A program made the position numbers and the translations under genes. A stretch of 64,000 bases of DNA, from positions 2,773,072 through 2,837,071 of the forward strand of contig OY811981.1 in NCBI GenBank assembly GCA_963681505.1. The letters run 5' to 3'. The stretch is from Eunapius fragilis (lineage: Eukaryota > Porifera > Demospongiae > Spongillida > Spongillidae). Shown piece by piece: positions 7,162 to 64,000 of this stretch. Below the pieces are notes generated by a model. The model searched no databases. It had not been told where the DNA came from and was given only the letters and a program-made list of their open reading frames with translations. Position 1 is the stretch's first letter. Each line of letters begins with the position of its first letter.

Positions 7162-7717
7162 AGTTCGACGAAGGATCAACATCGAGGGGAAGTTTGAAGG
7201 AACCGCAATTGTTTTTGGAGCACACCACAGGAAGAGTTTCACTCTTTGTCTCAGATCCACACGAATAACAATATCGGATTTTTCCTTTGGTAGCGTATTC
7301 CGTTAGCCGACTCATGGCACTTTGTGTTTCTTTGACGACTATCCTGAATGTACATCCACGTTGGCAAATTACTGTTTTATTATCATCATGGCACACTTGG
7401 TTGGCACATAACGGGCAGTGCTGGATATCGGATAATTGTATTTGAAGTATTTTAGGAGGAACATCGAAATTCGGAGAGTCATCGCAGTTTTCACAAAAAG
7501 TTATGTTTTTTGCGACGGCCATATCGTTGCCGCACATGTAACAGAATTTCATCAAACCATCTCTGGCGTAACGGTTCAATAAAGCGCCACACCCATCTTT
7601 TTCGGAAAGGATAAACTTGGAGCAGCAACTGATCGCTCCTTCTTGGACCACCGCTGTCTTGCCACATATTATGCAGTACTTGATGTTGACGAAGTAGACG
7701 GACTGTGCAGCAGACAT
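7162..7717 (-). CDS. zinc-ribbon array exon, third gene copy (partner exon outside window)
   Basis: An exon of 556 nt starts at an ATG (7717) and ends at a GTAAGT donor (7161-7156) in phase 1. The protein starts MSAAQSVYF and is a row of zinc ribbons: CIICG..CC, CYMCG..CENC, CPLCA..C..C and CYSCG..C..C. Two ~80-residue halves are clearly related: each pairs a ribbon with a helix ending LxxYAxxG, then a second ribbon C-Y-x-C-G. In the homologous locus at 39416-34148 the matching donor joins a GTPase exon. Here the partner would lie left of base 1. The frame extends upstream of the ATG to a GTG, which I do not use. Coding sequence is about 97% identical to 22592-23123 over shared parts. Function is unknown; zinc binding is inferred from Cys spacing. 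Confidence 0.75.
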
Positions 7718-7866
7718 CGTTATGAAAAGCTTATTTTCGTTTTCAGCTGTACCATCGACCACGTGCTACACAAATCGCGCTATGTCTTAGCTCTATGACC
7801 ATATATGTAAATCAAAACATCTGCTGTCACAACCAAAACATTCCAGCCTCTAACAGCCCTATATTT

Positions 7867-9746: not shown

Positions 9747-9844
9747 AACTATGACACATCATACTACATTCTACTAATTCTTATTTTAAAAAGACATTTG
9801 ATTATTGACTACGATAGGGCGAAAAAAAAACTTATGAAACAAGT

Positions 9845-10128
9845 AAATAAAAACATTCTCTAACAAGAGAGTTGTTGGGATATAGGATTGACCAATGGTG
9901 GTGTAAAAAGCACAGAAACAAGAGTGACAGAAATTTTACTGGAAAATTGAAATAGGCCTATATTTAGCACACTCACATTATAACAGTGCATGTCTGAGTA
10001 ATGGGCTAAATATAGGCCTATTTCAATTTTACTGGAAAATTTCTGTCACGTTTTTTTCCGTGCTTTTTACACCACCATTGGTCAATCCTACATACCAACA
10101 ACTCTCTCATTAGAGAATGTTTTTATAT
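9845..10128. mobile_element. MITE family 1, copy 3
   Basis: The left arm begins AAAAACATTCTCTAACAAGAG and the right arm ends CTCTCATTAGAGAATGTTTTT. Inner arms include TGGTGGTGTAAAAAG and a long perfect match around ATTTTACTGGAAAATT. The loop contains CAGTGCATGTCTGAG. Confidence 0.85.
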
Positions 10129-10218
10129 ACATGTACAAAGAGTCCTAGATTGGATATTCTATTGGTTTTGAGTTAAACTTCCATGAACCTTATATATTTA
10201 TATATTTATTATATTATA

Positions 10219-11067: not shown

Positions 11068-12602
11068 TCAGGGGTCACTTTTCTCTGCTTGAATTAACAG
11101 TTCTATATATTGAACCGGTGATAGAACTTTTGGTTTTAGTGCCATTTCTTCCAGATTTAGAATGCAAATATAAGCTTGCCTAATGGAATAGAGTACTATG
11201 TCTTCCAAATGATGTAACTCAGTGGTGATCAGTTTGATTATTTCTTCCTTTGCTCCTTTTCCATGTACAGGAACTCCATATCGCTTCTCAAGATCCTCTA
11301 AAGTGTGCTCTTCTTCCACTGTGTAGTGCTCAATCCTTTTTTGGCCATTTTTATGCATTTGCCAAGAACACTTGCCAGGGCAAACCATACAAATAGCTTT
11401 AGTTGGGTTATCTTGTGGTTTCATGGCAGCACATCCGTGTTTGCCTTCATCACGATTAATTTCACAAGGATAATGGCAGGTACGGTTACAAGTAAGGCAG
11501 TTAGTCACGTACTCTCCAGGAGCTAAATCTACTAGTCTTTGTTTATCTACCACTACCTTATAGGCTTTACAGTGATTTATTGAATTTTCTCGCAAAAACC
11601 TTCTCTCTTGCTTCAGGCAGTTAAGTTTTGACATATCTTCCATAATATACTTTTGCAAACCTTCAACACATACTTCCAGATGCTTTCGGTTTTTTAATAC
11701 TTTTTTTGTTAGTGTTAGGCTTTTACTTTCGACTTTTTGAAGTTCAGTAAAAAATGATTCAATATTGCTGACTCCCTTCTTCCAAAATGACTGATCATCA
11801 CAATCGTCATTTAGAAAGGCAGTACATTTTAATGTATATGTTTTATCTGTAGGAATATCCTTTATACATAGAGCATCACACACACTAGGTTTTCCTCCGT
11901 CTGAATGGGTTGCCATGATGAAAATATTGGTTTTTATATCTTTTCCAAATATTGACATTACAGCATCAAATATATATTCTTGGGAAGGGGTAAGTCTGAC
12001 GTCACTAGCTTTGACAGTAAATGCAATTCCATCCAAGTGATCAATTCCATATAGTGCTGGCGTATTAAATAAATGCTGAATTTGATCCATAAGCTTTTTA
12101 TCTCTCTCAAGCCCTTGGGTATCACCAAAACCAGGGGTATCAATTATTGTGAGGTTGAAGGTGATTTTGGATCCCTGGACCAAATGGAATGTATATGCTG
12201 TAATCCACTGAGTTTGGCTTTGTGTTTGATTTTTGCTTTCAGGTATGAGCAGAAATCGAAACGAATCTTCCCATTTAATGCCAAAGATATAATTAACAAT
12301 GGCATTAATTAGTGTGGACTTTCCAGCTCCTGTCTGCCCTAATATCATGAGAACTTTAGTTGGCACTGAAGGGTCTAGACATTTAGGGCCTATCTCAACT
12401 TTCTCAATATTTTTATTTTCATCTCTGAACACCTGAGTACAGGTAACTTTGTACTTTATTAGTTTTGCATCTTGACTTAGTCTTTCATAGTCCCTTGCAA
12501 GTTTACTAGCCAAGGTAGGGGTTGATACTGTAGCTGGTTGTGGTGAGGTGCAAAATCGATAATGGCTATGATTTAGTACTTGTATAACTTTTAACACCAG
12601 AT
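11068..12602 (-). CDS. AIG1/septin-like GTPase exon, gene 2 (C-terminally truncated)
   Basis: I read this as the GTPase exon of a gene whose zinc-ribbon exon is at 22592-23123. The acceptor TTTTTCACAG|AT lies at 12603-12604 and leaves 2 nt before the frame, matching the phase-1 donor of that exon. Without splicing, an ATG at 12630 would open the same frame. It shows the P-loop GQTGAGKST, DTPGFG (G3), a THSDGG G4-like motif, then a helical region and a Cys cluster (NCLTCNRTCHYPC ... CPGKCSWQMH). Compared with gene 1 the chain stops at AEKSDP: the CGA(Arg) of gene 1 is TGA here, and homologous sequence continues downstream. The linker lacks gene 1's 12-residue repeats. It is either a shortened protein or a recent pseudogene; molecular role unknown beyond GTP binding. 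Confidence 0.72.
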
Positions 12603-14144: not shown

Positions 14145-17100
14145 CAGGGGCGGATACAGGAATTTGGAAGGGGGGGGTCTAATAATTATATTCACAAGGG
14201 GGCAGAGCCCCAGAAACCAACGCCTTTTTATTATATCAAGCTCAAAATTCTTCACAAACATGTGCAACAAATATAGTTCCTTACTACATGCACACAACAC
14301 TCATTATGAGACCATACATGCATGATCCCACAATACAATCATATCACAACCAGTTACATGTAATTTTCATCACAATGCACATTATTTACATTTACTTAGA
14401 AGACAGAAATACATGTTACAGTTTAATGCATACAAATTCCAATATGAATTGTTAACAGAAAACTAACATTCAGCAAAGACAAGTTCACAGTCAGGTATAC
14501 TGTTATACATGTATGCACTAATCAGCAAAAGGATTCGTCAATAGCATTCTTCGAGGGTGGCGATGTGAAAACTCTTCCACTACCTCTTCGGGGTCGATAT
14601 TGATTTCCCTGTGGCACTTGAGGAGAGCTAGACTATTTAATCTGTCTTCCTTCATAGTGCTTCGTAATGCAGTTTTAAGCTGTCTTAGAAGGCTGATGGA
14701 TCTCTCACACTCACAACTTGTCACAGGTAGTGTAGTTATGATGAAAAGGAGAGCATGAATGTTGGGAAAGAAATCCTTATCAGTATGCTTTAGAACCTTC
14801 TCTGGAGTGTCCAACTCATGTGCTTTTTCAGCTGATGGCATGGTGGTCCATTTAATCTTCCACATATCTATTTCAGTGGCAAAGCCTCTGGAGAATGGAA
14901 GATCATCACCGTAAAGCTTCAGAAGGTTTGAAAAATCTGGTTGCCATTCAGAGACGAAATTTAACATTTCAGATGGCATAAGCTGAATGCATTCAACAAT
15001 AATACTGGTTGTTTCTTTATCAAATCTCATATCGAGTTCTGTGATGAGGTGGTCCAACATAGGGATGGTTATGATTCGTTTGTAGTGTTCACTTATATTA
15101 TCTGCTGGGGGATTGGCACGATGCAGTTGAATACATGATTTTCGAGGGCATGACTCTGTTACCCCAACACTTTCAGCCAATGCAATGGCCTCACTGTATA
15201 TTCTTGCATGCCATATGTCAACTTTACATCGAGCTTCTTTAATAGTTGACTTGACACCCTCTACATCATTGTGTGCACGAACTACATCAACATATCGTCC
15301 TTGAAGCTTTACACTAAGACCTTTTGTGTAAGATAAGTAAAACTAAAGCAACAACAAAAGGAAACTGAGAAATGGCATGCAAGAAAGAATTTGCATCCGA
15401 CTTTGACTCTCTGTTCCATTCTGAAGCATGACTTGATGCTATATCTTCCATGCAACATACAATTGGCATGAATAGTTCTCGAAAGACCTCAAATGCCTCA
15501 TGCCGTTCGACCCAACGTGTTTTGCACAGCTGCTTCATCTTCGACCTTTTTTCTTCAGGAAGCAATTCTTCTATCCATTTTTCTAATGCAAGCTGCCTTT
15601 TAGGTGAATTACAGAAGAACCGTGAAATGGAATCTGCAGTCTGCATCATACTGTTGATCTCTTGAACACTACAACATTTCACTACACAGAGGTTCAAACA
15701 ATGAGATGCACAATGTGTGTATAAAGCTTTTGGGTATTTTGAAACGATCCGAGCTGCTACTCCCTTAGATATTCCAGACATTGCTCCAGCACCATCATAG
15801 GCCTGTCCACGAAGTAAGTGTGGCTGTAGTTGCCAGACAGCCAAGTTAGAGATGATGTTATCTGAAAGTGCTTCACCTGTAACACCTGACACGCACTCAT
15901 GAAAAGCAATGAACTTTTCCTGTGGCACACCTTCTTCAACATACCGTATGCAGATTGACAGCTGCTCATCATTAGCTATATCAGTAGCTTCATCTGCAAT
16001 AATGGAAAAGTATTTAGCCTGCCGGACTTTAACAAGGATTTTGTTTCTAATTATGTCCCCACAAATCACAATAAGTTCATTTTGAACAGTTTTGCTGGTG
16101 TAGAGTGCATTAGAAGCACTATTTTTCATGTGTCCCTCTAACACTTTATCTCCAGCCTGAATACGAAAATTAAGAAGTGCCAGAAAATTACCATGGTTAC
16201 CATTTGGATCATCCTGAACATCATAGCAATCATCTCGATGACCTCTAAATGCAATACCCTGACGCCCACAGAAAATGACGGTTTCAACAATTGATCTGAT
16301 TTTTAAACGATTTTCTTTAACACGTTGTGCCCTTTCTGCATTTATTCGGTTGTCAATTCTTAGGGCTTCACATTCCATTACCGAAATGAATGAAGCAGCT
16401 TCTGTTGCAGCACATTGGTGATATCTTTTTCCTTTCAGGTTTTGATTAATAAAGTGTTCACTGAGCTTCTCACTTGCCTTTTTAAAATTTGTGAATGGGC
16501 TCACAACAAGGACCCCTAACTCGTTCACTGAACACTCACACTTCCCAAACAGCACACAGAACTTGCAATAACCCCCATCATCAGATTCTGAGTACACTAA
16601 ACCATTATATTTACTAAGCCATGAGTGCTGAAAGCTTCTCGTCTGCCCATTTATACTACGGCATGGAAATTTGTAGGTTGCAGCTGGTATGAAGTGCTTC
16701 TTTAGAAGGACATACATTTCATTATCAGTCAGGCTACGTTCTGACTTCAATTTAACCACCTTTCCAAAATCTCCTGTCAAAATAACAGGGTCTACATCAT
16801 TGTTTCCACGTATAGTTGGCGTTTTAATGAGTGCAATACCCGCGCTGTTTTCAGGTAAAGAAATTTGCTCGGTTTCTTGAATCTCTATAACAGCGTGTGG
16901 CTCGATTGCCTGCGTATGCTCGACCATATGGTTGACCACAGCTGCTGGCAATGCGGTAGCGCTAACTGTTACAGCCATCGTTAGTGGTGTATCTGAGGTT
17001 TCGCTTGAAGAGCCACTAGCCTGATCTACATCGGCACCCGGGGCCGGGCCCTCTGTGGGGGTCGTGGCCGTGCCCGTAGAGACTCTACGTACACGACACA

Positions 17101-17417
17101 AGTATAGCGTAAATAGTTACATGCATGTATGATTAACAGGTTATAGAAGCAAGCATGGTGCAGAGAGATACTTACCGATCCAAACTAAAATAATCAGTTA
17201 AATTGCCTTCTTTTTTCCTCGCTTTACGCTTTTCGCCACCTTGCAACGGAATCGTGCTCTTCGAACGCTTCATAATATTGGAACGTGTGTCAATTAATTG
17301 CTTTTAAAATTAATTTACATTGCTTTAATTATTCATACTTTGTTAATTATTCATAGTTCAATCGGAGCGAGGGGGGGGTCTTTAGACCCCCTAGACCCCC
17401 CCCTGGATCCGCCACTG
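14145..17417 (-). mobile_element. hAT5/ZMYM-type DNA transposon, near full length
   Basis: Ends are CAGGGGCGGATACAGG on the left and, read inward from the right, CAGTGGCGGATCCAGG: 14 of 16 match. AAAGT flanks both sides (14140-14144, 17418-17422), a 5-bp target duplication as described for the hAT5 group. It encodes a two-exon transposase on the minus strand. It interrupts the RT gene of gypsy B exactly, so gypsy B is older. Only one frameshift is evident in the transposase, suggesting relatively recent activity. Confidence 0.9.
14518..17273 (-). CDS. hAT5-type transposase (TTF zinc finger, DUF4371, hAT dimerisation), one frameshift
   Basis: Exon 1 is 17273-17176 (ATG, MKRSKSTIPLQ..., donor GTAAGT, phase 2). 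Exon 2 starts at 17084 after TACGTAG and restores the frame (R-VSTGTATTP). A TTF-type zinc finger is visible (HSWLSKYNGLVYSE ... GGYCKFCVLFGKC). The RNase H-like core has FSIIADEATDIANDEQ, GQAYDGAGAMSG and HCASHCLNLC. The C-terminal hAT dimerisation domain has LLFIITTLPVTSCECERSIS and SLLRQLKTALRSTM. A small indel near 15340 shifts the frame (one frame ends LHKRS; the other continues SYTKGLSVKLQGRY to the stop at 14518). Homologous to ZMYM1 / 52-kDa repressor-of-PKR-inhibitor-like proteins. Role: cut-and-paste transposition. The upstream TTG start of exon 2's open frame is discarded in favour of the spliced model. Confidence 0.85.
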
Positions 17418-22591: not shown

Positions 22592-23123
22592 GGGGGCCTA
22601 GGATAGAACCGCAATTGTTTTTGGAGCACACCACAGGAAGAGTTTCACTCTTTGTCTCAGATCCACACGAATAACAATATCGGACTTTTCCTTTGGTAGC
22701 GTATTCCGTTAGCCGACTCATGGCACTTTGTGTTTCTTTTAACACTATCCTGAAGGTACATCCACGTTGGCAAATTACTGTTTTATTATCATCATGGCAC
22801 ACTTGGTTGGCACATAACGGGCAGTGCTGGATATCGGATAATTGTATTTGGAGTATTTTAGGAGGAACATCGAAATTCAGAGTGTCCTCACAGTTTTCAC
22901 AAAAGGTTATGTTTTTTGCGACGGCCATATCGTTGCCGCACATGTAACAGAATTTCATCAAACCATCTCTGGCGTAACTGCTCAATAAAGCGCCACACTC
23001 GTCTTTTTCGGAAAGGATAAACTTGGAGCAGCAACTGATCGCTCCTTCTTGGACCACGGCTGTCTTGCCACATATTATGCAGTACTTGATGTTGCCGAAG
23101 TAGACGGACTGTGCAGCAGACAT
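22592..23123 (-). CDS. zinc-ribbon array exon, gene 2
   Basis: The exon starts at ATG 23123 (MSAAQSVYFGN) and ends at a GTAAGT donor (22591-22586) in phase 1, giving 177 codons plus 1 nt. Cys motifs CIICG, CYMCG..CENC, CPLCA..C..C, CYSCG and CSKNNC are all kept. Its last ~30 nt differ from copy three, yet the donor and phase are conserved. In the same orientation the first compatible downstream exon is the GTPase exon at 12602-11068. Five-prime sequence diverges from copy three 4-5 bp before the ATG. Upstream, 136 bp away, is the stop codon of another minus-strand gene (23259), so the promoter is very compact or overlaps that gene's 3' end. Zinc binding is inferred; function unknown. Confidence 0.73.
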
Positions 23124-23175
23124 CGTGGCACCTTTTCTTTAATACGCGCACGTGCCAATAAACGTTGTTAACTTG

Positions 23176-23486: not shown

Positions 23487-23606
23487 AAAGGATGTATGAT
23501 GTCGTAGTCATGATCTGTATTTCACATATCTACCAAAACATTATGACAATATGTTACATCCTTAAGGATACACAGCTGTTCTAGGGAGTTCAGCATAATG
23601 ACCACG

Positions 23607-23717
23607 TGTAGTGTAGGAAGTATGCATGCGTAGAACGTGGTATAAATATGATTGCTCTAGGTGATTTGTCATTCCTTGTCTCATAGATATATATTAATAG
23701 TATTCTGAGACACTACA
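23607..23717 (+). repeat. 5' LTR of gypsy C
   Basis: TGTAGTGTAGG...GACACTACA, 111 bp, very short for a gypsy LTR; contains TATAAATATG as a likely TATA box. Confidence 0.95.
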
Positions 23718-23741
23718 AAGTGGCGACGAGGGTGGGATAGA

Positions 23742-24815
23742 ATGGCGTCCTTACCCATTGGAAGGAGTCTAGAACCTTTCGACCCTCAGACAGAGGATTT
23801 CGAGGCGTACGCCGAACGGCTGGAACAGTACTTGCTAGTCAACGACGTCAGTGACAAGAAAAAGCAGGTAGCGTTTTTCCTAACTGTGGTGGGGTCTTCT
23901 ACCTATCAGGTTTTAAGGGACCTCCTGGCTCCTGATACCCCATCTTCGAGAACTCTTGAGGAACTTCTCAAGGTGCTAAAAGGGCACTATAAGCCGGCGA
24001 GACTTGTCATTGCCGAGCACTTCAATTTTCATCGCAGACATCAACAGCCTGGAGAGAGCGCAGCGCAATACATGGTAGAGCTTCGAAGGTTGGCAAAAAC
24101 ATGTCAATTTGGGCAATTTCTAAACGACACATTAAGGGACCAGTTGGTATGCGGGTTAATTGCCACTAATATACAAAAGCGTCTTTTGTCTGAAGCGAAT
24201 TTAACAGCTGAGCGCGCTCTTGAGTTATCTCACGCAATGGAGACCGTGGAAAAGGGGGCCAAAGACTTCAAGGAGGAACACCAAGACTCAAAGCGGCAAG
24301 AAACGGAGACGGCGGCTGTCAACGTAGTAAGAAAACCTGTACCCAATAGAGCACGTCCCTCCGAGAGTGACGAAGAATGCACTCGTTGTGCGGGGAATGG
24401 GCATGATTCATGGAATTGCCCTTATCGTGGGACCCAGTGTCACAAGTGCAAACGTGTTGGACATTTGGCACGAGCATGCAGGTCAAGCGGTTCAAAAAAG
24501 GAGACTACGCATCGAGTGACAGAGCTCCAGGAACAAGAGTACAGGTTGGACTACATCGGCGTCCTGAAGGGCATTAATACCAAGCGTGTGTGGATCGAAG
24601 TGGAGTTGAATGGAATACCACTAAAGATGGAGCTTGACACGGGAGCTAGTGTTAGTCTCATCAGCAAAAAGACATGGCAAGAGACGCTGGGATCTCCTCC
24701 TCTGACAAAAAGAAAATTGTCCTACGAGCTTATTCGGGGCATAGACTACATGTCATTGGGGAGACTACTGTTGACGTCAACGCAGGCTCTCAGCGGCACA
24801 AGAGTCTACCTTTAG
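23742..24815 (+). CDS. gag: gypsy C Gag with zinc knuckles and start of protease
   Basis: The ATG follows the primer-binding site by a few bases. The first ~200 residues are capsid-like (FLTVVGSSTYQVLRDLLAPD, NFHRRHQQPGESAAQYMVEL). Two zinc knuckles follow: CTRCAGNGHDSWNC and CHKCKRVGHLARAC. Then comes the protease active site LDTGASVSLIS in the same frame. The frame leaves homology near 24735; the rest of protease (LFGRNWL) is in the +2 frame up to 24955. In this lineage Gag and Pol are often one frame, so I read the change as damage rather than programmed shifting. Confidence 0.9.
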   Translation: MASLPIGRSLEPFDPQTEDFEAYAERLEQYLLVNDVSDKKKQVAFFLTVVGSSTYQVLRDLLAPDTPSSRTLEELLKVLKGHYKPARLVIAEHFNFHRRHQQPGESAAQYMVELRRLAKTCQFGQFLNDTLRDQLVCGLIATNIQKRLLSEANLTAERALELSHAMETVEKGAKDFKEEHQDSKRQETETAAVNVVRKPVPNRARPSESDEECTRCAGNGHDSWNCPYRGTQCHKCKRVGHLARACRSSGSKKETTHRVTELQEQEYRLDYIGVLKGINTKRVWIEVELNGIPLKMELDTGASVSLISKKTWQETLGSPPLTKRKLSYELIRGIDYMSLGRLLLTSTQALSGTRVYL

Positions 24816-24955
24816 TTGTTGTAGAGGGAGAGGAAGCTCCATTGTTTGGTAGAAATTGGCTTGTACAAGTAGATATTCAAACAACAATTAGGGAAGATAA
24901 AAGATTTAAAGGCCACAATAAGAGTACAAAGCGAGGCAACACTGAAGTTTTTTAA
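24735..24955 (+). pseudogene. gypsy C protease C-terminus
   Basis: Frame change relative to Gag. LPLVVVEGEEAPLFGRNWLV matches the last strand of gypsy proteases (PLLGRDWL-type). Ends at a stop before RT. Confidence 0.8.
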
Positions 24956-24989
24956 ACCAAGGCCTGTTGCCTACGCACTGAGAGAACGG

Positions 24990-26035
24990 GTGGAACAAGA
25001 GTTAGAGCGCCTGGTAGCCATAGGTGTAATAGAGCCTATTTCGCACTCTGAATGGGCTGCACCAATTGTACCAGTAATCAAGAACAATGGGGATGTAAGG
25101 ATGTGCGGCAACTTCAAAGTCACGGTCAACCAATGTTTGGATATTGAGCAGTATCCTCTTCCAAAGATTGACGACTTGTATGCAAAATTACAGGGAGGAG
25201 AAAGGTTCACCATTTTAGACCTTAAATGGAATTAGATGAGGGTTCACGGAAGTATTTAGTTGTCAACACGCACAGGGGTTTGTTCAGGTACAAGCGATTA
25301 CCCTTTGGTGTTAGTTCGGCCCCGGCCTTGTTTCAGAGAGCGATGGACACCATTCTGCAAGGATTACCTGGCGTAGTGTGTTATCAGGATGACATATTGG
25401 TCACCGGAAAGGAAATGAACGAACATCTCAAGAATCTTGAACAAGTTTTTGGAAGACTAAACGAGTTTGGTTTGCGGTTGCGTTTGACAAAGTGCAAATT
25501 CCTCAAAGAATCAGTTGAATATCTAGGTCACGTGATTTCAAGGAACGGAATTTGCACAAGCCCAAAGAAGATAGAAGTAATACAGAAGGCACCGATTCCC
25601 CTTAACGTCACAGAGTTGAGATCATTCCTAGGGATTGTCAATTACTATGGGAAGTTTATCCAAAGCGTAGCTGATCTTTGTGCACCATTGAATGAGCTAT
25701 TGCAGAAAAATACTCCGTGGATGTGGACAGCGACCTGCATGGAGAGCTTCAACCAGCTTAAGCAAGCATTAGGATCGGCCGAAGTACTGTGCCATTACAA
25801 TCCTTCTGAAAAAGTTAGCCTTGCTTGTGACGCATCAGCTCATGGCCTTGGAGCAGTTCTGTCACACCATTTCAAGGACGGGTCGGAGAGGCCGATAAGT
25901 TATGCATCAAGAACACTTTCGAAGGCAGAACGAAATTATTCGCAAATTGAAAATGATCGAAGCTCTCAGCATCATATTCGGGTTGAAGAAATTTCATCAA
26001 TATCTCTATGGTTGAAAATTCTTATTGGTGACTGA
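24990..26035 (+). pseudogene. pol: gypsy C RT and RNase H, broken
   Basis: The RT N-terminus (24990-25235) reads LVAIGVIEPISHSEWAAPIV and FTILDLKWN. About a dozen bases of the catalytic LDL-AY region are missing at 25225-25235, after which the frame changes. 25240-26035 continues YKRLPFGVSSAPALFQRAMD, CYQDDILVTG (YxDD), FLGIVNYYGKF and RNase H CDASAHGLGAVLSH. A second frame change near 25960 cuts RNase H; its end (LLVTDHQLLVKIFGPK-like) is in another frame at 25975-26180. Confidence 0.88.
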
Positions 26036-26181
26036 TCATCAACTGTTGGTCAAAATATTTGGACCGAAGGCAGGAATATCCTCACTTGTGGCAGGACAAC
26101 TGCAAAGGTGGGCCTTATGCTTAGCGGGATATCAATACGACTGTCTATAAGCCAACGCAGAAGCATGGGAATGCAGATGGA

Positions 26182-27685
26182 TTGTCGAGATATCCATCGA
26201 CGGAGTCTGAAGCCATTGATGATGAGGAAGGGGGCGATCGTATCTTGGCTTTATACGGACCACAGTTGGCGGCATACCCACTAACTGTCAAGGACATCGA
26301 ACGAGGGACCATATCTGATGCACTGTTGAGACAGGTGTTGAAATTCACAAAATATGGATGGAACAAGACAGGCAGAGTAGATGATAAGCTACGGCCATAC
26401 TTTAATCGAAGAGAGGAGCTGTCAACCGAAGGAAACTGTCTGATGTGGGGAATCAAAGCAGTGATTCCCCCGGGGATGCGGCAACATGTCTTGAAGGAAT
26501 TGCATCAGAGCCATCCAGGGATCGTAAGAATGAAATCATTGGCCCGGTTGCACGTGTGGTGGCCAGGAATCGACGAAGATATTGAGCGGATGGTGCGTGC
26601 CTGCGATTCTTGTAATCAGCAGAAGGATAACGTACCACATGCACCTTTGCATCCTTGGGAATATCCATCCAAACCATGGCAGTGGTTGCATGCTGATTTT
26701 GCAGGTCCATTCTTCGGAAAAATGTGGCTCATAGTTGTTGATGCAAGAACGAAATGGCCCGAAGTATTCCAGTTGCATGAAGCTACCAGCGGGATGACAA
26801 TTAATGACTACTTTCTCACGTTTTGGCCTTATATATTATCTCTGTTTTGGCCTTCCGGAAATAATCGTGACAGATAATGGTTCTCAATTCACGAGTGACC
26901 AATTCAAGACATTCTGCGACGAGAATGGTATCAGACGTGTGAGAGTGGCGCCTTACCATCCAAGCTCAAATGGTGAAGCAGAGCGTTTTGTGAAAACGTT
27001 CAAACGTGCTTTTAGCGCTATGGGTAACGAGAAGGATCCTGTTCGACGTTTGCAACAGTTTCTATTTTCATACAGGAACACCCCTCACTCGACAACGGGG
27101 GTATCGCCTGCCGAGCTTCTGGTCGGAAGACAATTGAGAGGTAGGCTTGACCTTTTGAGGCAACAAACATGCATCACAAATACTTCACACTGTCCCAATC
27201 CTGAGGTGAAAGTACAGGCGTCTCAGAGAAGACAGAAAATAGCCTACGACAAACATGCAAAGCAACGTGAGTTTACTGTTGGACAAGCTGTGTGGGTAAA
27301 AGGACAAAACCATCAACAAAGTTGGCTACCGGGGGTGATCGTGAAGCAACGCAATAGTGTATCCTATACAGTCAATGTTAGTGGACAGTTATGGCATCGT
27401 CACATTGATCATCTCCGGGAAAGAGAACAGGATGAAGCCCATGTGCAAGGGGCAGAAGATGCTGAATACTTTCCTAACAGGCAACCGGGTTCAGCAGATA
27501 ACCAGGACATAAATACAGATGAAAATGCACCAAATCTGAGACATGAAGAACAGCCAATACATGATGCTACCCCTCAAGAGGATCAGGCAACATTGCCTGA
27601 AAACGCAACGGTGGAAAGACGACGGAAGTCCACCAGAGAGCATCGTCCTCCAGTGCGTTTCCACGAAGAGTTCAAATGGCTATAA
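26182..27685 (+). pseudogene. pol: gypsy C integrase, one frame change
   Basis: The frame at 26182-26877 gives the H2C2 zinc domain (HQSHPGIVRMKSLARLHVWW ... CDSCNQQ) and core Asp 1 (LHADFAGPFFGKM). A frame change near 26830 leads to 26840-27685, with Asp 2 (VTDNGSQF) and Glu (YHPSSNGEAERFVKTFKRAF). The C-terminal part has a GPY-like region (SWLPGVIVKQ, LWHRHIDHLRE) and an acidic/basic tail ending HRPPVRFHEEFKWL. Confidence 0.9.
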
Positions 27686-27715
27686 TGTATGAAGAAGAAA
27701 ACTCGGGGGAAGAAG

Positions 27716-27826
27716 TGTAGTGTAGGAAGTACGCATGCGTAGAACATGATATAAATATGATTGCTCTAGGTGATTTGTCATTCCTTGTCTCATAGATATA
27801 TATTAATAGTATTCTGAGACACTACA
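27716..27826 (+). repeat. 3' LTR of gypsy C
   Basis: 111 bp, three mismatches to the 5' LTR (all transitions: near GTACGC, AACATG and GATATA). Confidence 0.95.
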
Positions 27827-28010: not shown

Positions 28011-28878
28011 CACCCACGTGCCCCAGTGAGTACCCACGTGCCCCAGTGAGTACCCACCTGCCCCCAATGAGTACCCACGTGCCCCAGTGAGTACCCACCT
28101 GCCCCTAGTGAGTACCCACGTGCCCCAGTGAGTACCCACCTGCCCCCAGTGAGTACCCACATGCCCCCAGTACCACATGCCCCCAGTGAGTACCCACCTG
28201 CCCCCAGTGAGTACCCATGTGCCCCAATGAGTACCCAGTGCCCCCAGTGAGTACTCACCTGCCCCCAGTGAGTACTCACCTGCCCCCAGTGAGTACTCAC
28301 CTGCCCCCAGTGAGTACCCGCCTGCCCCCAGTGAGTACCCATGTGCCCCAGTGAGTACCCCCGTGCCCCCAGTGAGTACCCACCTGCCCCCAGTGAGTAC
28401 CCATGTGCCCCAGTGAGTACCCACCTGCCCCAGTGAGTACCCACCTGCCTCCAGTGAGTACCCATGTGCCCCAATGAGTATCCACCTGCCCCAGTGAGTA
28501 CCCACCTGCCCCCAGTGAGTACCCACCTGCCCGCAATGAGTACCCACGTGCCCCCAGTGAGTACCCACGTGCCCCCAGTGAGTACTCACATGCCCCCAGT
28601 TAGTACCCACATGCCCCCAGTGAGTACCCACGTGCCCCAGTGAGTACCCACCTGCCCCCAGTGAGTATCCATGTGCCCCAGTTAGTACCCACATGCCCCC
28701 AGTGAGTACCCACGTGCCCCAGTGAGTACCCACATGCCCCCAGTGAGTACCCACGTGCCCCAGTGAGTACCCACATGCCCCCAGTGAGTACCCACGTGCC
28801 CCAGTGAGTACCCACCTGCCCCCAGTGAGTATCCATGTGCCCCAGTGAGTACTCACATGCCCCCAGTGAGTATCCAGA
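28011..28878 (-). repeat. ~22-bp minisatellite, left array
   Basis: About 40 units around CCCCCAGTGAGTACCCACCTG with variants (ACGTG, ACATG, ATGTG). The opposite strand reads GGGTACTCACTGGGG. All three minus-strand frames are long and open, which is expected from stop-free repeat units rather than coding. Confidence 0.95.
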
Positions 28879-29114
28879 TGTCCTGGTCAAAACAAAATGT
28901 CCTCCAGCTGCTTTCCTGCTATCTGATATATCCTGTATGGAAAACCTTCTGCTAGTAAATACCAAACAGTGCAAAATGACAGGTGAAAACTGCCCCAGGC
29001 AGCACTACTGCTCATGAATTATAAACAAGACAGCACAGCCAAACATCCTGCCCATCCATGTATGCAGCCCATTGTCCTATGCAACAAACCCCACAGCAAC
29101 CCAGGACATCTGTG
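28879..29114. other. spacer between inverted minisatellite arrays
   Basis: Unique sequence whose ends are themselves inverted: CAGATGTCCTGG on the left, CCAGGACATCTG on the right. Confidence 0.8.
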
Positions 29115-29824
29115 ACACGTGGGTACTCACTGAGGGCACGTGGGTACTCACTGGGGGCAGGTGGGTACTCACTGTGGCAGGTGGGTACTCACTGGGGGCA
29201 GGTGGGTACTCACTGGGGCACGTGGGTATTCACTGGGGGCAGGTGGGTACTCACTGGGGGCAGGTGGGTACTCACTGGGGCATGTGGGTATTCACTGGGG
29301 CAGGTGGGTATTCACTGGGAGCATGTGGGTACTCACTGGGGGCACGTGGGTACTCACTGGGGGCACGTGGGTACTCACTGGGGGCAGGTGGGTACTCACT
29401 GGGGCAGGTGGGTACTCACTGGGGGCAGGTGGGTACTCACTGGGGCACGTGGGTATTCACTGGGGGCACGTGGGTACTCACTGGGGGCAGGTGGGTACTC
29501 ACTGGGGGCACTGGGTACTCACAGGGGGCACATGGGTACTCACTGGGGCACGTGGATATTCACTGGGGGCACTGGGTACTCACTGGGGGCAGGTGGGTAC
29601 TCACTGGGGGCACATGGGTACTCACTGGGGGCACGTGGGTACTCACTGGGGGCAGGTGGGTACTCACTGGGGGCACGTGGGTACTCACTGGGGGCATGTG
29701 GGTACTCACTGGGGCAGGTGGGTACTCACTGGGGCAGGTGGGTACTCACTGGGGCAGGTGGGTACTCACTGGGGACATGTGGGTACTCACTGGTGGCATG
29801 TGGGTACTCACTGGGGCATGTGGT
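29115..29824 (+). repeat. ~22-bp minisatellite, right array (inverted)
   Basis: About 33 units around GGGTACTCACTGGGGGCAGGT, the reverse complement of the left array. Plus-strand frames are open throughout for the same reason. Confidence 0.95.
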
Positions 29825-33419: not shown

Positions 33420-33655
33420 GGTTCTCGTAAAAAATTTGTCTTGCCTCAAGCACAAATTTTTGACATATGCATTTCAATGCAAACCTCTAGTTGCTTTTTG
33501 TCCCTTTGTACCTCTCTTGTCAGTATTAGGCTTTTACTTTCAACTTTCTGAAACTCAGCGTTATACTTATTAAACTGTTGGAGTGAATAAACGCAGAGTT
33601 ATTGTTATTGAATATAAATTTCTTATCTGTAGGAATATCAGCTTCATTTACAGTA
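33420..33655 (-). pseudogene. GTPase gene fragment (third copy)
   Basis: The plus-strand text GTTCTCGTAA...TTGTCTTGCCTCAAG, TTAGGCTTTTACTTTCAACTTTCTGAAA and TATAAATTTCTTATCTGTAGGAATA matches gene 1 at 34868-35155 with gaps. Only the region between the G domain and the Cys cluster survives. It lies 490 bp beyond the 3' end of gene 1, suggesting a tandem duplication remnant. Confidence 0.8.
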
Positions 33656-34147
33656 CTTCTCAAATTCAGGACCCCAGTTCATGCAGCCTTGCCTATGAAG
33701 AGCTAGTTGGAGGAGATTATAAGAGCGCAAAAAACTTCTGGAATATGTCTTATTGGTGTGAGATGGAGTCCTGGCTGGAATGCACGCATGCACTCAAGTT
33801 TTTTTGTATGTATATATAGATGTAGAAGTTTTTAATGAGATAACTTTTTTGTGTGCATTGCATGCGCTAAATGTGTTTTTGTGCTCCAAAGTTAATTAAT
33901 TGTGAAGCCGCCATGCTGGAATCAATATCACAAATTGTGTATGTGTTCCAAATATCAAACCTACTGTCAGTGCAGAACATTCGTGACATACGTACGGACC
34001 GCCACAAATGTGAACAACAAAAAAATTCTACAAATCACCAAGATCACAATGAAATCTGAAACATCCTCATACTACTGAGTAGTGAAAAACAACTAATATG
34101 GAAGTTCACTGTGGTCAACTTATGTGATATGCACATACCTATCTACT
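33656..34147. other. 3' flank of GTPase gene 1
   Basis: No feature supported beyond likely 3' UTR near 34147. Confidence 0.4.
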
Positions 34148-36036
34148 CTATGATAGTTTACATTGTGATTTTGTAGGCAGCTTTGAAGGCTGACCATCAT
34201 CATCATCTGAGAGGTCCTCTTCAGTAAAACCATATTCTTTCAAGAATGCGTCCATTGTTTGCTCTTTTATATGAGACATAAGCTTTGCAGCCTTTTTTGC
34301 TCTCTCATACTGTTGGACACGGCCCTGCCAACCAGGTCGAGGGTCACTTTTCTCTGCTTGAATTAGCAATTCTATATGTTGAACTTGAGAGAGGGGATTA
34401 GGTTTTAGTGCAATTTTTTCTAGATTTTGAATGCAGGAATGAGCTTTTTGAATGCAAGTGAAAACGTCTTTTTCCAACTGACGTTTCTCAGCAGTGATCT
34501 TTTTTACTATTGCTTCCTTTGCTCCTTTTCCTTCTAAAGCTATGTGGTATCTCTTCTTTAGGTCCTCATAAGTGCGCACTTCTTTCTCTGAATACATTTC
34601 ATACCGTTTTGGGTTATTTACGTGCTGCTGCCAAGAACACTTACCAGGGCAAACTGTACAAGCCGCATAGTCCGGGTCATCTCGTGGTTTCATGGCAGCA
34701 CATCTAAGTTTGTCTTCATCACGATTAATTTTACAAGGATAATGGCAGGTACGGTTACAAGTAAGGCAGTTAGTCACATACACTCCAGGAGCTAAATCTA
34801 CTAGTCTTTGTTTGTCTACCACTACTTCATATGTGAAGTCTTTATTTGCATCAATGGATTCCTTGTGTTCTCGTAATAACTTTTTCTCTTGCCTCAAGGA
34901 GCTAATTTTTGACATGCCTTCAGTAATATTTTGCTGTAAACCTTGAATGCATATTTCCAGTTGCTTTCTCTCTGCTAATACCTCATTTGTTAGCGTTAGG
35001 CTTTTACTTTCAACTTTCTGAAATTCAGCTAAAAATGATCGGACACTTTCAACTCCCATCTCCCAAAACATCTTACTGAAATTGTTTGCATCACGTGGAG
35101 GAGTAAATAAAGCTGAGTTATTGAATATAAAATTCTTATATGTAGGAATACCTGCTTCTTTGAGTGCTTCAAACACCGTAGATGTTCCACCATCTGCATG
35201 TGTTGCCATTATGAAAATATTGCTTCCTATGTCTTTTCCAAATATTGACATAACAGCATGAAATATATATCTTTGGGTATGTGTAAGCCTAGAATCATGA
35301 GCTTTGACAGTAAGTGCAATTCCATCGAAATGATCTATTCCATATTGCGCTGGTATAGAAAAGAATTCTTCAATTTGATCTATAAGCATTTTATCTCTTT
35401 CAAGTCCTTGAGTATCACCAAAACCAGGAGTATCAATTATTGTGAGGTTGAAGGCGACTTTGGATCCATGGACCAAATGGAATGTATATGCTGTAATCCA
35501 CTGAGTTTGGCTTTGTGTTTGGCTTTTGCATTCAGGTATGAGCACAAATCGAAAGGAATCTTCCCATTTAATTTCAAAGATATAATTAACAATGGCATTA
35601 ATTAGTGTGGACTTTCCAGCTCCTGTTTGCCCTACGATCATGAGAACTTTAGTGGGCACTGAAGGGTCTAGACATTTAGGGCCTATCTCAACTTTCTCAA
35701 TTTTTTTAGTTTCATCTCTGAACACCCTGTTAGTGGTAACTTGGTACAGCATTAGTTCTGTGTCTTCATTTAGTCTTTGGTAACCTCGTGCTACCATGCT
35801 AGCCAAGGTAGGAGTCGATACTGGCTGTGGTGAAGCCTCTGAGGAAGGAATCAACACTGGCTGTGATGAAGCCACTAAGGTAGGAATCACTACTGGCTGT
35901 GGTGAAGCCACTGAGGTAGGAATCACTACTGGCTGTGGTGAAGCCACTGAGGTAGGAATCACTACTGGCTGGGTTGGAGCCCCTGAGGTAGGAATCACTA
36001 CTGGGTGTGATGCAGTACTTGTGGTGCTTGAAGTAC
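34148..36036 (-). CDS. AIG1/septin-like GTPase exon with C-terminal Cys domain, gene 1
   Basis: The second exon of the fusion gene. The acceptor is GTTACCCAG|GT at 36038-36037, leaving 2 nt before the frame: exactly complementary to the phase-1 donor at 38860. Joined protein: 814 aa. Residues about 187-260 are a Thr/Pro linker with five 12-residue repeats (QPVVIPTSVASP). The G domain follows with P-loop GQTGAGKST (~321-329), DTPGFG (~387-392) and THADGG (~464-469), as in invertebrate/fish AIG1-like GTPases where the G4 NKxD is replaced. Next come a helical region, a Cys/His cluster NCLTCNRTCHYPC ... CTVCPGKCSWQQH (~609-657) and a helical C-terminus ending in an acidic run (EEDLSDDDDG). The exon alone has no ATG before the P-loop linker, so an upstream exon is needed. 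Role unknown; membrane or immune GTPase functions of related GIMAPs are only an analogy. Confidence 0.82.
35795..36000 (-). repeat. 36-bp in-frame tandem repeat in linker
   Basis: About five copies encoding PVVIPTSVASPQ-like units; absent from gene 2. Confidence 0.9.
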
Positions 36037-36259
36037 CTGGGTAACATACAGTCTTTTACTTTATTTTCAGGTTGCAACAGAGAACAAGGAATAATTTAAT
36101 CGTTATCGTATTGCAGTTTTTATAAGGTGAGAACAACTTACATTGCATCACAGTTTTCTCTGACAAATTTTTGAAGTTGTTTCGCACCTTATAACTGCAT
36201 CACAAACTGTGATGAGATACCAGTTAAATTATTCCCAGGAGAATGTTAACTAACTAATC

Positions 36260-36465
36260 AAGGCAGCGAAAAGGGACCTAGCGCAAAAATTTTCCAGGAA
36301 GGTGGATCAAAGTTGATGCATGCTATTAAAATGTATGTATAATTTAAAAATTCAGCTCCATGATGGACAGACTAATTTCCAGTGCATAAAAAAGAAGTTG
36401 TAGAGGACATAAGTGTCTCTTTGAATATGAAATATGTGCTAGGTCCTTTTCACTGCCTCAATCCC
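36260..36465. mobile_element. MITE family 2, copy 2
   Basis: Left AGGCAGCGAAAAGGGACCTA, right TAGGTCCTTTTCACTGCCT. Confidence 0.85.
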
Positions 36466-37928
36466 AATTAAATATATGCATAACCTCTGTCTGTGAACTT
36501 GACACAAATAGATTTTATACACAGCAGTTAACTATGTACTACCAAAGTAATAAATAAAATCTTCATTACAGAATTCAGTGTTCTGGCATCTTTAATTCCC
36601 GCACCTCTTGATACCTTTTATTTTTCTTTCAAATGCATGTGGGTATCTACCATAATGCACTTAACAATGTAGTATGCACCCCTCCCCCCCAGGGTGATGG
36701 TCAGGGATTTAACAATGTTTGACACAAGAGATTATAACGCAAGAGCAAACGCAAGAGAAATGTATTCCAGTGTGTGATAATAGGAGAAAATTTTTCTTGT
36801 GCTGCTGAAGAGGAACACGTACAAGCCATGTATTAAATCATTACAACGTTGAGTGATGTTTTCTAAGTCAAGACCCCCTAACTTTAATATAAAAATATGG
36901 CCTGGGAACGAGGCTAAGCAGATGATATGATAGATATGAATACTGCAGCTCTCCAAGTCCTAATGATATTCATCCAAATTCCACCATGTCTAGCTGTTGG
37001 GGAACCATGATGCATACTAAATAGTCGCCTCAAGTGATCATGCATAAGGCCACAATGAACTACTTGTAAAATAGTTGTATAAAATGTCTTCAGTGACATG
37101 CCACATCACTGTGGAGACATGCATGCTATAAACTGTTTGCATGGTAAAAAGGTTACCTATTCCTAAAAGACCCGGGAAAACACTTCTTGGACATGTGTAA
37201 AGGAGTTTTTCAAAGGATACTACCATACCCCATTATCAGAACTTATGGTCAGTATGGAAGCAGGTTCCATATAGGATTGATGCAGTATAATGAATGCCAT
37301 TCTTAAAAATGTGACTTACATCTAGAGAGACAACCTAGAATCAAATCACTTCCATTTTTCCCTACCAAATGACAACATGACTAACAGTTCAATGCACCAA
37401 AACCATGAGCGGAATACCACCAAAGGCGAGACGAAATGTTAAGCAAGAAATCCTCTAAAGAAAACTTCAGTATGTAACAGCTACAAGGCTGATCCTGAAA
37501 AGAAGGCCTATGTGCGCAACGGAGATTTTCAAGGTAGATATTGAATCTAAGTGATGCAGCAATATTGAGAGGATCTCAAAGTGAACCATGTGCTAAAAGA
37601 AAATAATTCAGCAGCCATTAAGGAGTCAAAGACCCTGATGCTGTCCACTTAGCTAAACAAAACCAGTCCATACTTGAATAGCACATTTTAATCAAAAACC
37701 AGTACTGTACAAGTAAACTTTTTTTTTTTCAAATGCAAGCCTAGAATGCTGGAGTTAGTTAGCTATGGCTGATTGTACACAGCGGGATGTCAGCCAAGGT
37801 TTTCAAATAAGTAATCCTTTTTCACAGACACCCATAATTTTCTTTGTTGAGACTGGTTTAAATGGCCACCTAGCATCCACTTGCCAGCCTGTGATCAGTT
37901 AGACAAAGCGTATATATAAAACAATACT

Positions 37929-38158
37929 TGGGGTCGTGACACAAAAAGGGACCTAGCGAAAATTTTCCAGGAAGGAGCATCAAAGTTGAGGCGTGCAATT
38001 AAAATGTATATGTCATTAAAAATTCAGGCCAGTGTAACTCCATGATGGACAGACTAATTTCTGGTGCGAAAGAAGTTGTAAGGTGTCTCTTAGAATATGA
38101 AATAATTTGAAAACTTGAAAAAAATATGCGCTAGGTCCCTTTTCGCTGCCTCAATCCC
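37929..38158. mobile_element. MITE family 2, copy 3
   Basis: Left GGGGTCGTGACACAAAAAGG, right CCCTTTTCGCTGCCTCAATC; TIR reads GGGGTCG-GGCAGCGAAAAGG with copy 4. Confidence 0.85.
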
Positions 38159-38860
38159 ACTTCTATATGTATAGTCTAATCGCCCGACCCCTTAGATAGG
38201 GAGGATTTGATAGCCTACCGCGAGGCAGTTTGATATGATGCTATGTCAAATCCCGACTACTGCCTGTATAGAGGGGGAGGCGGATTACATTAATAAGTTG
38301 CATAGTTGTACTTGAAGTAAGTAGTATGCATTTCTTTTAACCCTCATAAAACAAATGATTGGAGTATGACGTCAACTGAGGTTGTATTGATACAGAGTGC
38401 CATGATGCACACATGAGGTTGCTCTATTGCATGTACACCATAGATACTTTGGGGGGGTGGGGATGGGGGAGGGTTTGAGAATGGGAGTAGGTCAGAACAA
38501 ATCCATTTCCTGCATATCCAGAAATCACCCATACATCGGCGGTCATCTTGCATTTTATTTATAAATGACGTTAAGAAATACTAAAAATCAATCTCAATGT
38601 ATGCTGTTATTTTCACTGCAATAAGAGCAAGCAATGTTATGCAAAAATCAAGGCAAAATTTAAATTACTACCGCATCTAATTATAAAATTCAGCACATAA
38701 CCACATTAAGTCACTGTTTTATTTATTTTTTTGCAGTTATTAAACTCTTTCACATGATTACGTGTACAATTACCAGCCAGCATATGTAGGTGAGTTATAT
38801 CGTTATTGCAATGGCGGATACCATTTCTAGTGAGACATAAATGATCTGGTTGGGACTTAC

Positions 38861-39416
38861 AGCTCAGCAGCTCTTTTACATCACTGCCTTGCTGAAGCGT
38901 GAGTTTGCAGGAATCGCAATCGTTTCGGAAGCACACCACATAATGAGCGTCACTGCATGTATTTGCCTCAGATCCGCACGAATAGCAATATCTAATTTTT
39001 CCTTTGGTTGCATATTCCAATAGCCGATCCATGGCACCTTTAGCTTCGTTGATGACTATCCTGAAGTTGCAATCTTTAACACAAGTACAGATTACTCCAT
39101 TCCTGATGGGGCGTGCTGGCCTGGCACATAACGGGCAGTGCTGAATATCGGACAGCTGCATTTTAGGAGGAGCATTGAAAGTTTTGGTGTCTTGGCATCT
39201 GGCACAAAATATTACGTCTTCTTCCACGATCATTTCGTTGCCGCACATGTAACAGAATTTCATCAAACCATCTCTGACGGAACGGTTCAATGAAGCTTCA
39301 CAATCATCTTTATCAGAGAGGAGGAACTTGGAGCAGCACTTGATCGCTCCTTCTTGAGCCATGGCTGGCTTGCCACATACGACGCAGTGCTTGATGTCAA
39401 TGAAGTGGATAGACAT
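38861..39416 (-). CDS. zinc-ribbon array exon, gene 1
   Basis: First coding exon: ATG at 39416 (MSIHFIDIKHCVVCGK), 556 nt, donor GTAAGT, phase 1. Cys positions: C11/C14 with C27/C28, C55/C58 with C71/C74, C94/C97 with C110-C116, C144/C147 with C162/C167. Thus there are four putative zinc ribbons arranged as two repeats of one ~80-residue unit. In each unit a helix (DGLMKFCYMCG; KGKIRYCYSCG) leads into the second ribbon. The exon length equals that of the copy at 7162-7717, while the sequence is much more diverged than copies two and three are from each other. Without splicing the frame reads on to 38706, but the conserved donor in all three copies argues that the exon ends at 38861. No family name recognised. 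Confidence 0.82.

Positions 39417-42305: not shown

Positions 42306-64000
<21,695 letters not shown>

Follow-up and report, generated by a model that had tools for sequence, protein, structure and literature searches.

The question raised by this locus is whether an exon encoding zinc ribbons and an exon encoding an AIG1/septin-like GTPase, which follow one another on the (-) strand of a 64,000-nucleotide stretch of the sponge Eunapius fragilis (contig OY811981.1, positions 2,773,072 to 2,837,071; hereafter the window), are spliced into one gene. The window is C11:2773072-2837071 of a host genome of 218.9 Mb in 24 contigs, and coordinates below are positions in the window unless a contig is named; ribbon-bearing loci are lettered A to H, further letters denoting other GTPase members. 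From the comparison of eight loci, the ribbon exon and the GTPase exon are considered to form one gene through a putative splice join, with a probability of about 85%; this confidence was lowered a little because the acceptors are weak.

Exon 1 of copy A (38861..39416, (-)) was 556 nt long, beginning with ATG, comprising 185 codons plus 1 nt and ending in phase 1, the last T being followed by GTAAGTCC; judged by their cysteine pattern, the 185 aa form two double zinc ribbons in tandem. An intron of 2824 nt (36037..38860, (-)) follows, and comparison with the other introns gave no common exon. Exon 2 (34148..36036, (-)) starts after CCAG, its first two nucleotides complete the divided codon to give a joined protein of 814 aa, and it encodes a repeat linker, an AIG1/septin-like G domain, a Cys/His cluster, a tail and the stop. 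The exon coordinates, the phases and the 814-aa join of 39416-38861 / 36036-34148 given in the initial annotation were all reproduced. The linker (35806..36036, (-)) was recovered in the repeat search (family D5) as 12-aa repeats with a 36-nt unit; the sequence further gave the P-loop GQTGAGKS (35609..35632, (-)), the Cys/His cluster (34616..34774, (-); C423, C426, C430, H431, C434, C445, C459, C462 and H471 invariant in 14 aligned members) and a CaaX-like C-terminal CKLS (34151..34162, (-)). The first Met of this exon lies 3' of the linker, 55 aa ahead of the P-loop; the earlier remark that no ATG precedes the linker holds for copies A and C. A fragment of another GTPase copy (33473..33717, (-)) was found by sequence comparison and repeat search.

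Three ribbon exons (copies A, B and C) lie in the window. Protein search of the whole genome gave 8 matches with the copy A ribbon exon and 36 with the GTPase; with ribbon copy F as query, 11 matches at E up to 10 were obtained (the eight again, together with a relic on C1 and two weak hits interrupted by stops), and with ribbon copy H 10 matches (the eight plus two weak hits). The relic is a ninth, broken ribbon exon (E 5.8e-8, two stops); in the 20 kb around it the GTPase queries matched low-complexity, mostly proline-rich stretches only. Behind each of the eight clear ribbon exons stands a GTPase exon in the same orientation (A, B, C and D on C11; E on C6; F on C2; G and H on C5), the intervals being ~1 to 11 kb across these four contigs. 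The pairing goes beyond chance, which by our own estimate would place a GTPase neighbour within 12 kb of one ribbon exon with a probability of ~4e-4; by our own count the G domain occurs at ~16 core GTPase loci, and ribbons thus stand at 8/16.

Exon 1 of copy C (7162..7717, (-)) also encodes zinc ribbons in 556 nt and has the same donor, T before GTAAGTCC; the GTPase exon that belongs to it is found beyond the window (C11:2769298-2767985) and is degenerate, with G3 changed and the Cys/His region gone. In copy B the ribbon exon (22592..23123, (-)) loses homology to copy C at 22606, its tail and donor being non-homologous to those of copies A and C; the GTPase exon (11068..12602, (-)) is stopped by a TGA replacing an Arg codon of copy A, after which the frame changes and a remnant of the tail, partly in the other frame, reaches ~10900. 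This pair, 22592-23123 / 11068-12602, had been presented as a second case with the same donor, acceptor and phases: the phases match, but the donor is not homologous and the GTPase stops early. Between the two exons of copy B, at 14518-17116 (-), frames resembling a hAT-type transposase by eye were observed. In copy D the start codon is missing and the frame of the GTPase is broken. On joining, copies A, E, F, G and H gave open frames of 760-860 aa.

At 8/8 loci the ribbon exon is succeeded by a phase-1 donor, and at 7/8 the donor with the highest score is of phase 1, the exact donor of copy F being uncertain; phase-fitting acceptors were present at all seven loci scored (D left out), more than one fitting in F, G and H. 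The splice-site scores are rough weights of our own making. Across the acceptor, identity between copies A and C was 83% on the exon side (48 nt) and 38% on the intron side (60 nt; random 60-mers of the A and C introns: 26% identity, 95% point 35%). No middle exon shared among the eight introns was found, the matches between them being short (15 by blastn, 6 from open reading frames); an intervening exon that breaks the frame, named in the initial annotation as one of the outcomes that would refute the join, was not found shared across these introns. Six of the matching intron segments were compared, as candidates for a middle exon, with 262,000 bases and discarded: counting the segment itself, three occurred 11 to 36 times and the other three 2 to 6 times. 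The intron-to-intron matches were taken for repeats because the tested segments recur.

Several observations weigh against a single spliced gene. The best-scoring donor of copy A is another phase-1 site, 87 nt past the named one, and that of copy D is a phase-0 site; the named acceptor of copy A scored -2.7 (18th among the 25 AG sites of the first 240 nt) and that of copy C is weak (-3.1); three of the eight loci (B, C and D) look broken; and the Met 55 aa before the P-loop is common to copies A, C and F, which makes a shorter GTPase start possible. This last point leads to the proposal that there are two adjacent genes, one encoding the zinc ribbons in a single exon and the other a GTPase that starts at the internal Met, held together by linkage. 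Copy E likewise has a Met 50 aa before the P-loop, the ribbon open reading frames remain open some way past the donor, and the histories of the two exons differ in part, as those of separate genes could; yet the GTPase conservation between A and C begins at the acceptor, well ahead of the internal Met, the only Met ahead of the P-loop in copy B is 3 aa away from it, the read-through tails of the ribbon exons are unlike each other while the phase-1 donor is kept, and the linkage recurs on four contigs at the short intervals given above. Two separate genes are regarded as quite improbable.

Another explanation retains the splice and makes the ribbon exon one of several alternative first exons, the GTPases being made with and without ribbons. 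It would agree with the other N-termini of the ribbon-free paralogues and with the splice forms, with and without N-terminal modules, described for snail AIG genes in the parts of the source consulted (PMC7053062), but no other common exon was found in the eight introns, a search that excluded the sequence upstream of the ribbon exon; such alternative use is judged unlikely. A family in decay, consisting mostly of pseudogenes in which the fusion has no present role, would be suggested by the premature stop and frame change of B, the missing Cys/His region of C, the missing start and broken GTPase frame of D and the relic on C1. It is contradicted by the five long joined frames of A, E, F, G and H and by low ratios of nonsynonymous to synonymous substitution rates (dN/dS) of 0.16 for the G-H ribbon pair and 0.14-0.17 for the A-E, B-E and E-F GTPase pairs, where dS is high (1.9-2.5), and appears very improbable. 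Over all estimable pairs dN/dS was 0.16-0.58 for the ribbon exon (7/21 pairs) and 0.14-0.52 for the GTPase (8/15 pairs among A, B, E, F, G and H), other paralogues reaching 0.77 (J-K); comparison of the copies shows constraint on both exons.

Ribbon exon: 14 cysteines were invariant in 8/8 sequences, and hhalign showed its two halves to be homologous (98.6%, E 1.3e-15), 20 column shuffles giving no more than 2.9%; the exon is therefore read as a duplicated double ribbon, that is, an internally duplicated double zinc ribbon of four CxxC-based modules, the fold being predicted from the cysteine pattern. In Pfam, no model reached its cut-off with the three ribbon copies of the window (DZR, PF12773: B 12.6 and C 11.3 bits against a gathering threshold of 27.3; copy A no match). 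Over the eight ribbon members, the best E values were obtained for NMD3 (0.0012) and the Rad50 hook (0.0015), one member each; DZR matched 3/8 members (best E 0.0078). Search of PDB with the ribbon sequence and profile gave no significant match.

GTPase: the Pfam Septin model (PF00735) matched copy A with 1.2e-10 and 41.6 bits (cut-off 26.2) and copy B with 39.1 bits; the match is partial, spanning positions 7-76 of the 280 of the model, so that the septin G domain is not matched over its full length. AIG1 (PF04548) matched copy A with 3.1e-7, also partially, above the gathering threshold of 27.0 bits; above it were A and B (30.4 each), F (30.7), L (30.1), Q (29.1) and S (27.4), below it J (26.6), I (23.9) and G (23.7), copy E not being listed at E 0.01. 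The family profile matched GIMAP7 along the G domain (9.4e-7, ~260 profile positions) and septins over ~80-115 positions, septins also providing the best PDB sequence matches, which lie between the P-loop and G3. The GTPase accordingly is, as far as sequence models and profiles place it, a member of the septin/AIG1/GIMAP group, and the designation "AIG1/septin-like" of the initial annotation stands. G1 and G3 were intact in 12/12 full G domains aligned, the G3 region reading DTPGFGD; G4, usually [NT]KxD, was T[HF][AS]D in 10/12, with neither form in Q and S. PHROGs and PADLOC gave weak matches only, mostly at the P-loop.

The Cys/His cluster after the G domain was found in 14/14 aligned members, ribbon-bearing or not, two of which have no G domain in frame. 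The cluster had been noted before as a second metal-binding module framing GTP binding in the fusion; it does exist, but because it occurs in all aligned members it is a feature of the GTPase family and not of the fusion. On C19 (L033; 619-1386 and 7294-8052, (-)) two copies of the Cys/His part that lack a G domain in frame have between them possible death-domain-like frames, seen by eye.

CaaX-like C-termini, a feature absent from the initial annotation, were present in A (CKLS), D (CRIS), E (KKKKCIIS) and F (KKKSGCPIS), and the remnant after the stop of copy B, in the other frame, ends with CIIL; as a background, Cys stands at position -4 in 17/499 window open reading frames of at least 50 aa. 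At the N-terminus the ribbon-free J and K have a strongly hydrophobic helix, I and S have N-myristoylation-like MG-starts, and O has a kinase domain within the same open frame. The CaaX-like ends, the hydrophobic helix and the MG-starts may all be membrane anchors, judging by consensus motifs. A frame of 1199 aa on C12 (L032:1264-4860, (-)) was observed to combine a protein kinase domain (Pfam 5.9e-32) with a long tract of repeats and a GTPase copy that has diverged.

The two exons differ in part in their history. The GTPase tree (14 rows) places G and H with the ribbon-free L, M and N (100/98), and approximately unbiased (AU) tests, the groups of which were partly named after the trees had been seen, rejected all eight ribbon-bearing GTPases as one clade (p 1e-7), E, F, G and H together (p 1e-69) and E with F (p 0.003); a GTPase clade of A, B, C and D without F was not rejected (p 0.089). 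In the ribbon tree A-D are separated from E-H (100/100), with F as a long branch. A swap of copy F was tried on topology and not upheld: a ribbon group of A, B, C, D and F was not rejected (AU p 0.36), nor was the GTPase clade without F. The case for exchange in copy F rests on divergence values.

The divergence of the two exons conflicts in 7/21 pairs (seven loci, D left out). For A-F, the proportion of synonymous differences (pS) was 0.78 in the ribbon exon against 0.39 in the GTPase (difference 0.39, interval 0.26-0.52); ribbon pS minus GTPase pS was 0.34 for B-F, 0.22 for C-F, -0.34 for B-C and -0.19 for G-H, all intervals excluding zero. Ribbon dN relative to GTPase dN was 0.42 for E-G, 0.45 for E-H and 1.57 for A-E; in pS, of E-G and E-H only the latter has an interval that excludes zero. 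Exon exchange or gene conversion explains the unequal histories; many pS values are saturated, and rate differences may contribute. An alternative for G and H is that the ribbon exon is ancestral and was lost from the ribbon-free lineages. The ribbon exons of C (7200-7720) and B (22606-23126) were 96.7% identical over 521 nt, from 3 nt before the ATG to within the exon; the similarity is absent from the adjoining flanks, as after gene conversion or exon transfer. At C5:5294133-5297812 the ribbon exons of G and H lie head to head and are 92% identical, their GTPases being far more diverged.

The pairing at eight places, taken with the apparent separate exchange of the halves, points to a modular protein family, and the best explanation overall, to which an even chance is given, is an AIG1/GIMAP-like switch that is tethered to a membrane and carries a zinc-ribbon module for binding, which can be exchanged. 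In such a protein of 814 aa, two tandem double ribbons would be followed by a flexible repeat linker, the G domain, the Cys/His module, a tail and the CaaX-like end; prenylation would place it on a membrane, GTP binding would drive dimers or polymers there, as with GIMAPs and septins, and the ribbon array would bind a partner or target and so set where or when assembly occurs. The ribbon block may be one among several N-terminal modules that can replace each other on a shared GTPase, since some ribbon-free paralogues carry other N-termini (helix, N-myristoylation-like start, kinase). Defence would be the most likely setting. To be set against this explanation are the atypical G4, which makes guanine specificity less than certain, the lack of a CaaX-like end in C, G and H, and the two AlphaFold models of the window sequences alone, which were unusable (mean predicted local distance difference test, pLDDT, 30.5 and 41.8) and too poor to add to the cysteine pattern as the basis of the ribbon fold.

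A housekeeping, septin-like scaffold, with ribbons binding RNA or a polymerase-like partner and the GTPase organising membranes, would suit Septin as the best Pfam match and the weak ribbon matches, RPB9 and NMD3 models among them; housekeeping genes would not usually form tandem clusters, have broken copies or exchange exons, and the proposal seems unlikely. More ambitious is an extension of the switch that would make the ribbon exon a sensor cassette open to exchange, moved and homogenised among immune-type GTPases via the phase-1 intron; its ribbons would recognise an invader or host signal, the prenylated GTPase would polymerise on the membrane, and the whole would be an independent eukaryotic counterpart of the bacterial zinc-ribbon conflict GTPases. 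This extension is tentative and, as a whole, rather unlikely.

Guanylate-binding proteins are large immunity GTPases of the dynamin-like family, some of them CaaX-ended; no model of these proteins was among the Pfam matches listed (25 of 29), no sequence search for them having been made. Septins resemble the family in providing its best Pfam match, but over the short stretch given above, against the ~260 positions of GIMAP7. AIG1/GIMAP proteins share with it the G domain, tandem copies and variable N-terminal modules, including a kinase (PMC7053062), and differ in that the present G domain is followed by a Cys/His cluster. The consulted portions of the literature link AIG1/GIMAP-like GTPases repeatedly to immunity (PMC7053062, PMC8201404); 19 architectures, including death domains and a kinase, are described for Biomphalaria AIG genes, the word "zinc" being absent from the main text of that paper (PMC7053062), and a GIMAP review, in the parts consulted, gives coiled coils and C-terminal transmembrane (TM) helices without mention of CAAX, prenylation or zinc (PMC8201404). 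For sponges, extracts report GIMAP-family genes in the response to symbiont consortia (PMC11229196) and GTPases regulated by lipopolysaccharide (PMC8242945).

The closest analogue in layout is provided by the bacterial DO-GTPases, which are TRAFAC-type and, according to the sections consulted, have one or two N-terminal zinc ribbons in 60% of cases and N-terminal TM segments in ~13%, so that the alternative of ribbons or TM is also shared (PMC7159879). The ribbons of the present family, present by cysteine pattern only, number four against one or two, and in place of the Walker B glutamate by which DO-GTPases are defined (PMC7159879, in part) 12/12 full G domains aligned have DTPGFGD, which places the family outside that definition. 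Scans of viral_contigs (queries A1, A2, A4, A5 and one degenerate DNA pattern) gave no relative within their viral scope; scans of genome_contigs (queries A1 and A4) gave none among bacteria and archaea, a scope silent on eukaryotic relatives. No description of a fusion of ribbons with an AIG1/GIMAP/septin GTPase was found in the portions of the open-access literature consulted; the word "undescribed" in the initial annotation is to that extent not contradicted, eukaryotic protein databases lying outside the comparison.

A binding module is here apparently spliced in front of an AIG1/GIMAP-like GTPase at several loci of one genome, with a possible lipid anchor behind; the ribbon module, through its binding target, gives a testable handle. 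Zinc ribbons before a TRAFAC GTPase are reported, in the literature consulted, from bacterial conflict systems, and the same layout on a different GTPase in a eukaryote would point to convergence.

Other features of the window: an inverted repeat between copies B and C (9839-10134; 133-nt arms, 89% complementary, 30 nt spacing) resembles a miniature inverted-repeat transposable element; a Ty3/gypsy-like retroelement was recognised by eye at 23606-27826 (+), flanked by a 112-nt direct repeat of 97% identity; and at 28041-29816 a minisatellite of 20-21 nt forms two facing arrays, the arms being 87-95% complementary over up to 208 nt (25 longest pairs). The genome is recognisable as eukaryotic, probably animal, by U5 spliceosomal RNA (Rfam RF00020, 97.7 bits) at 58771-58886 (+) and by exons in its vicinity that by eye are myosin-heavy-chain-like.

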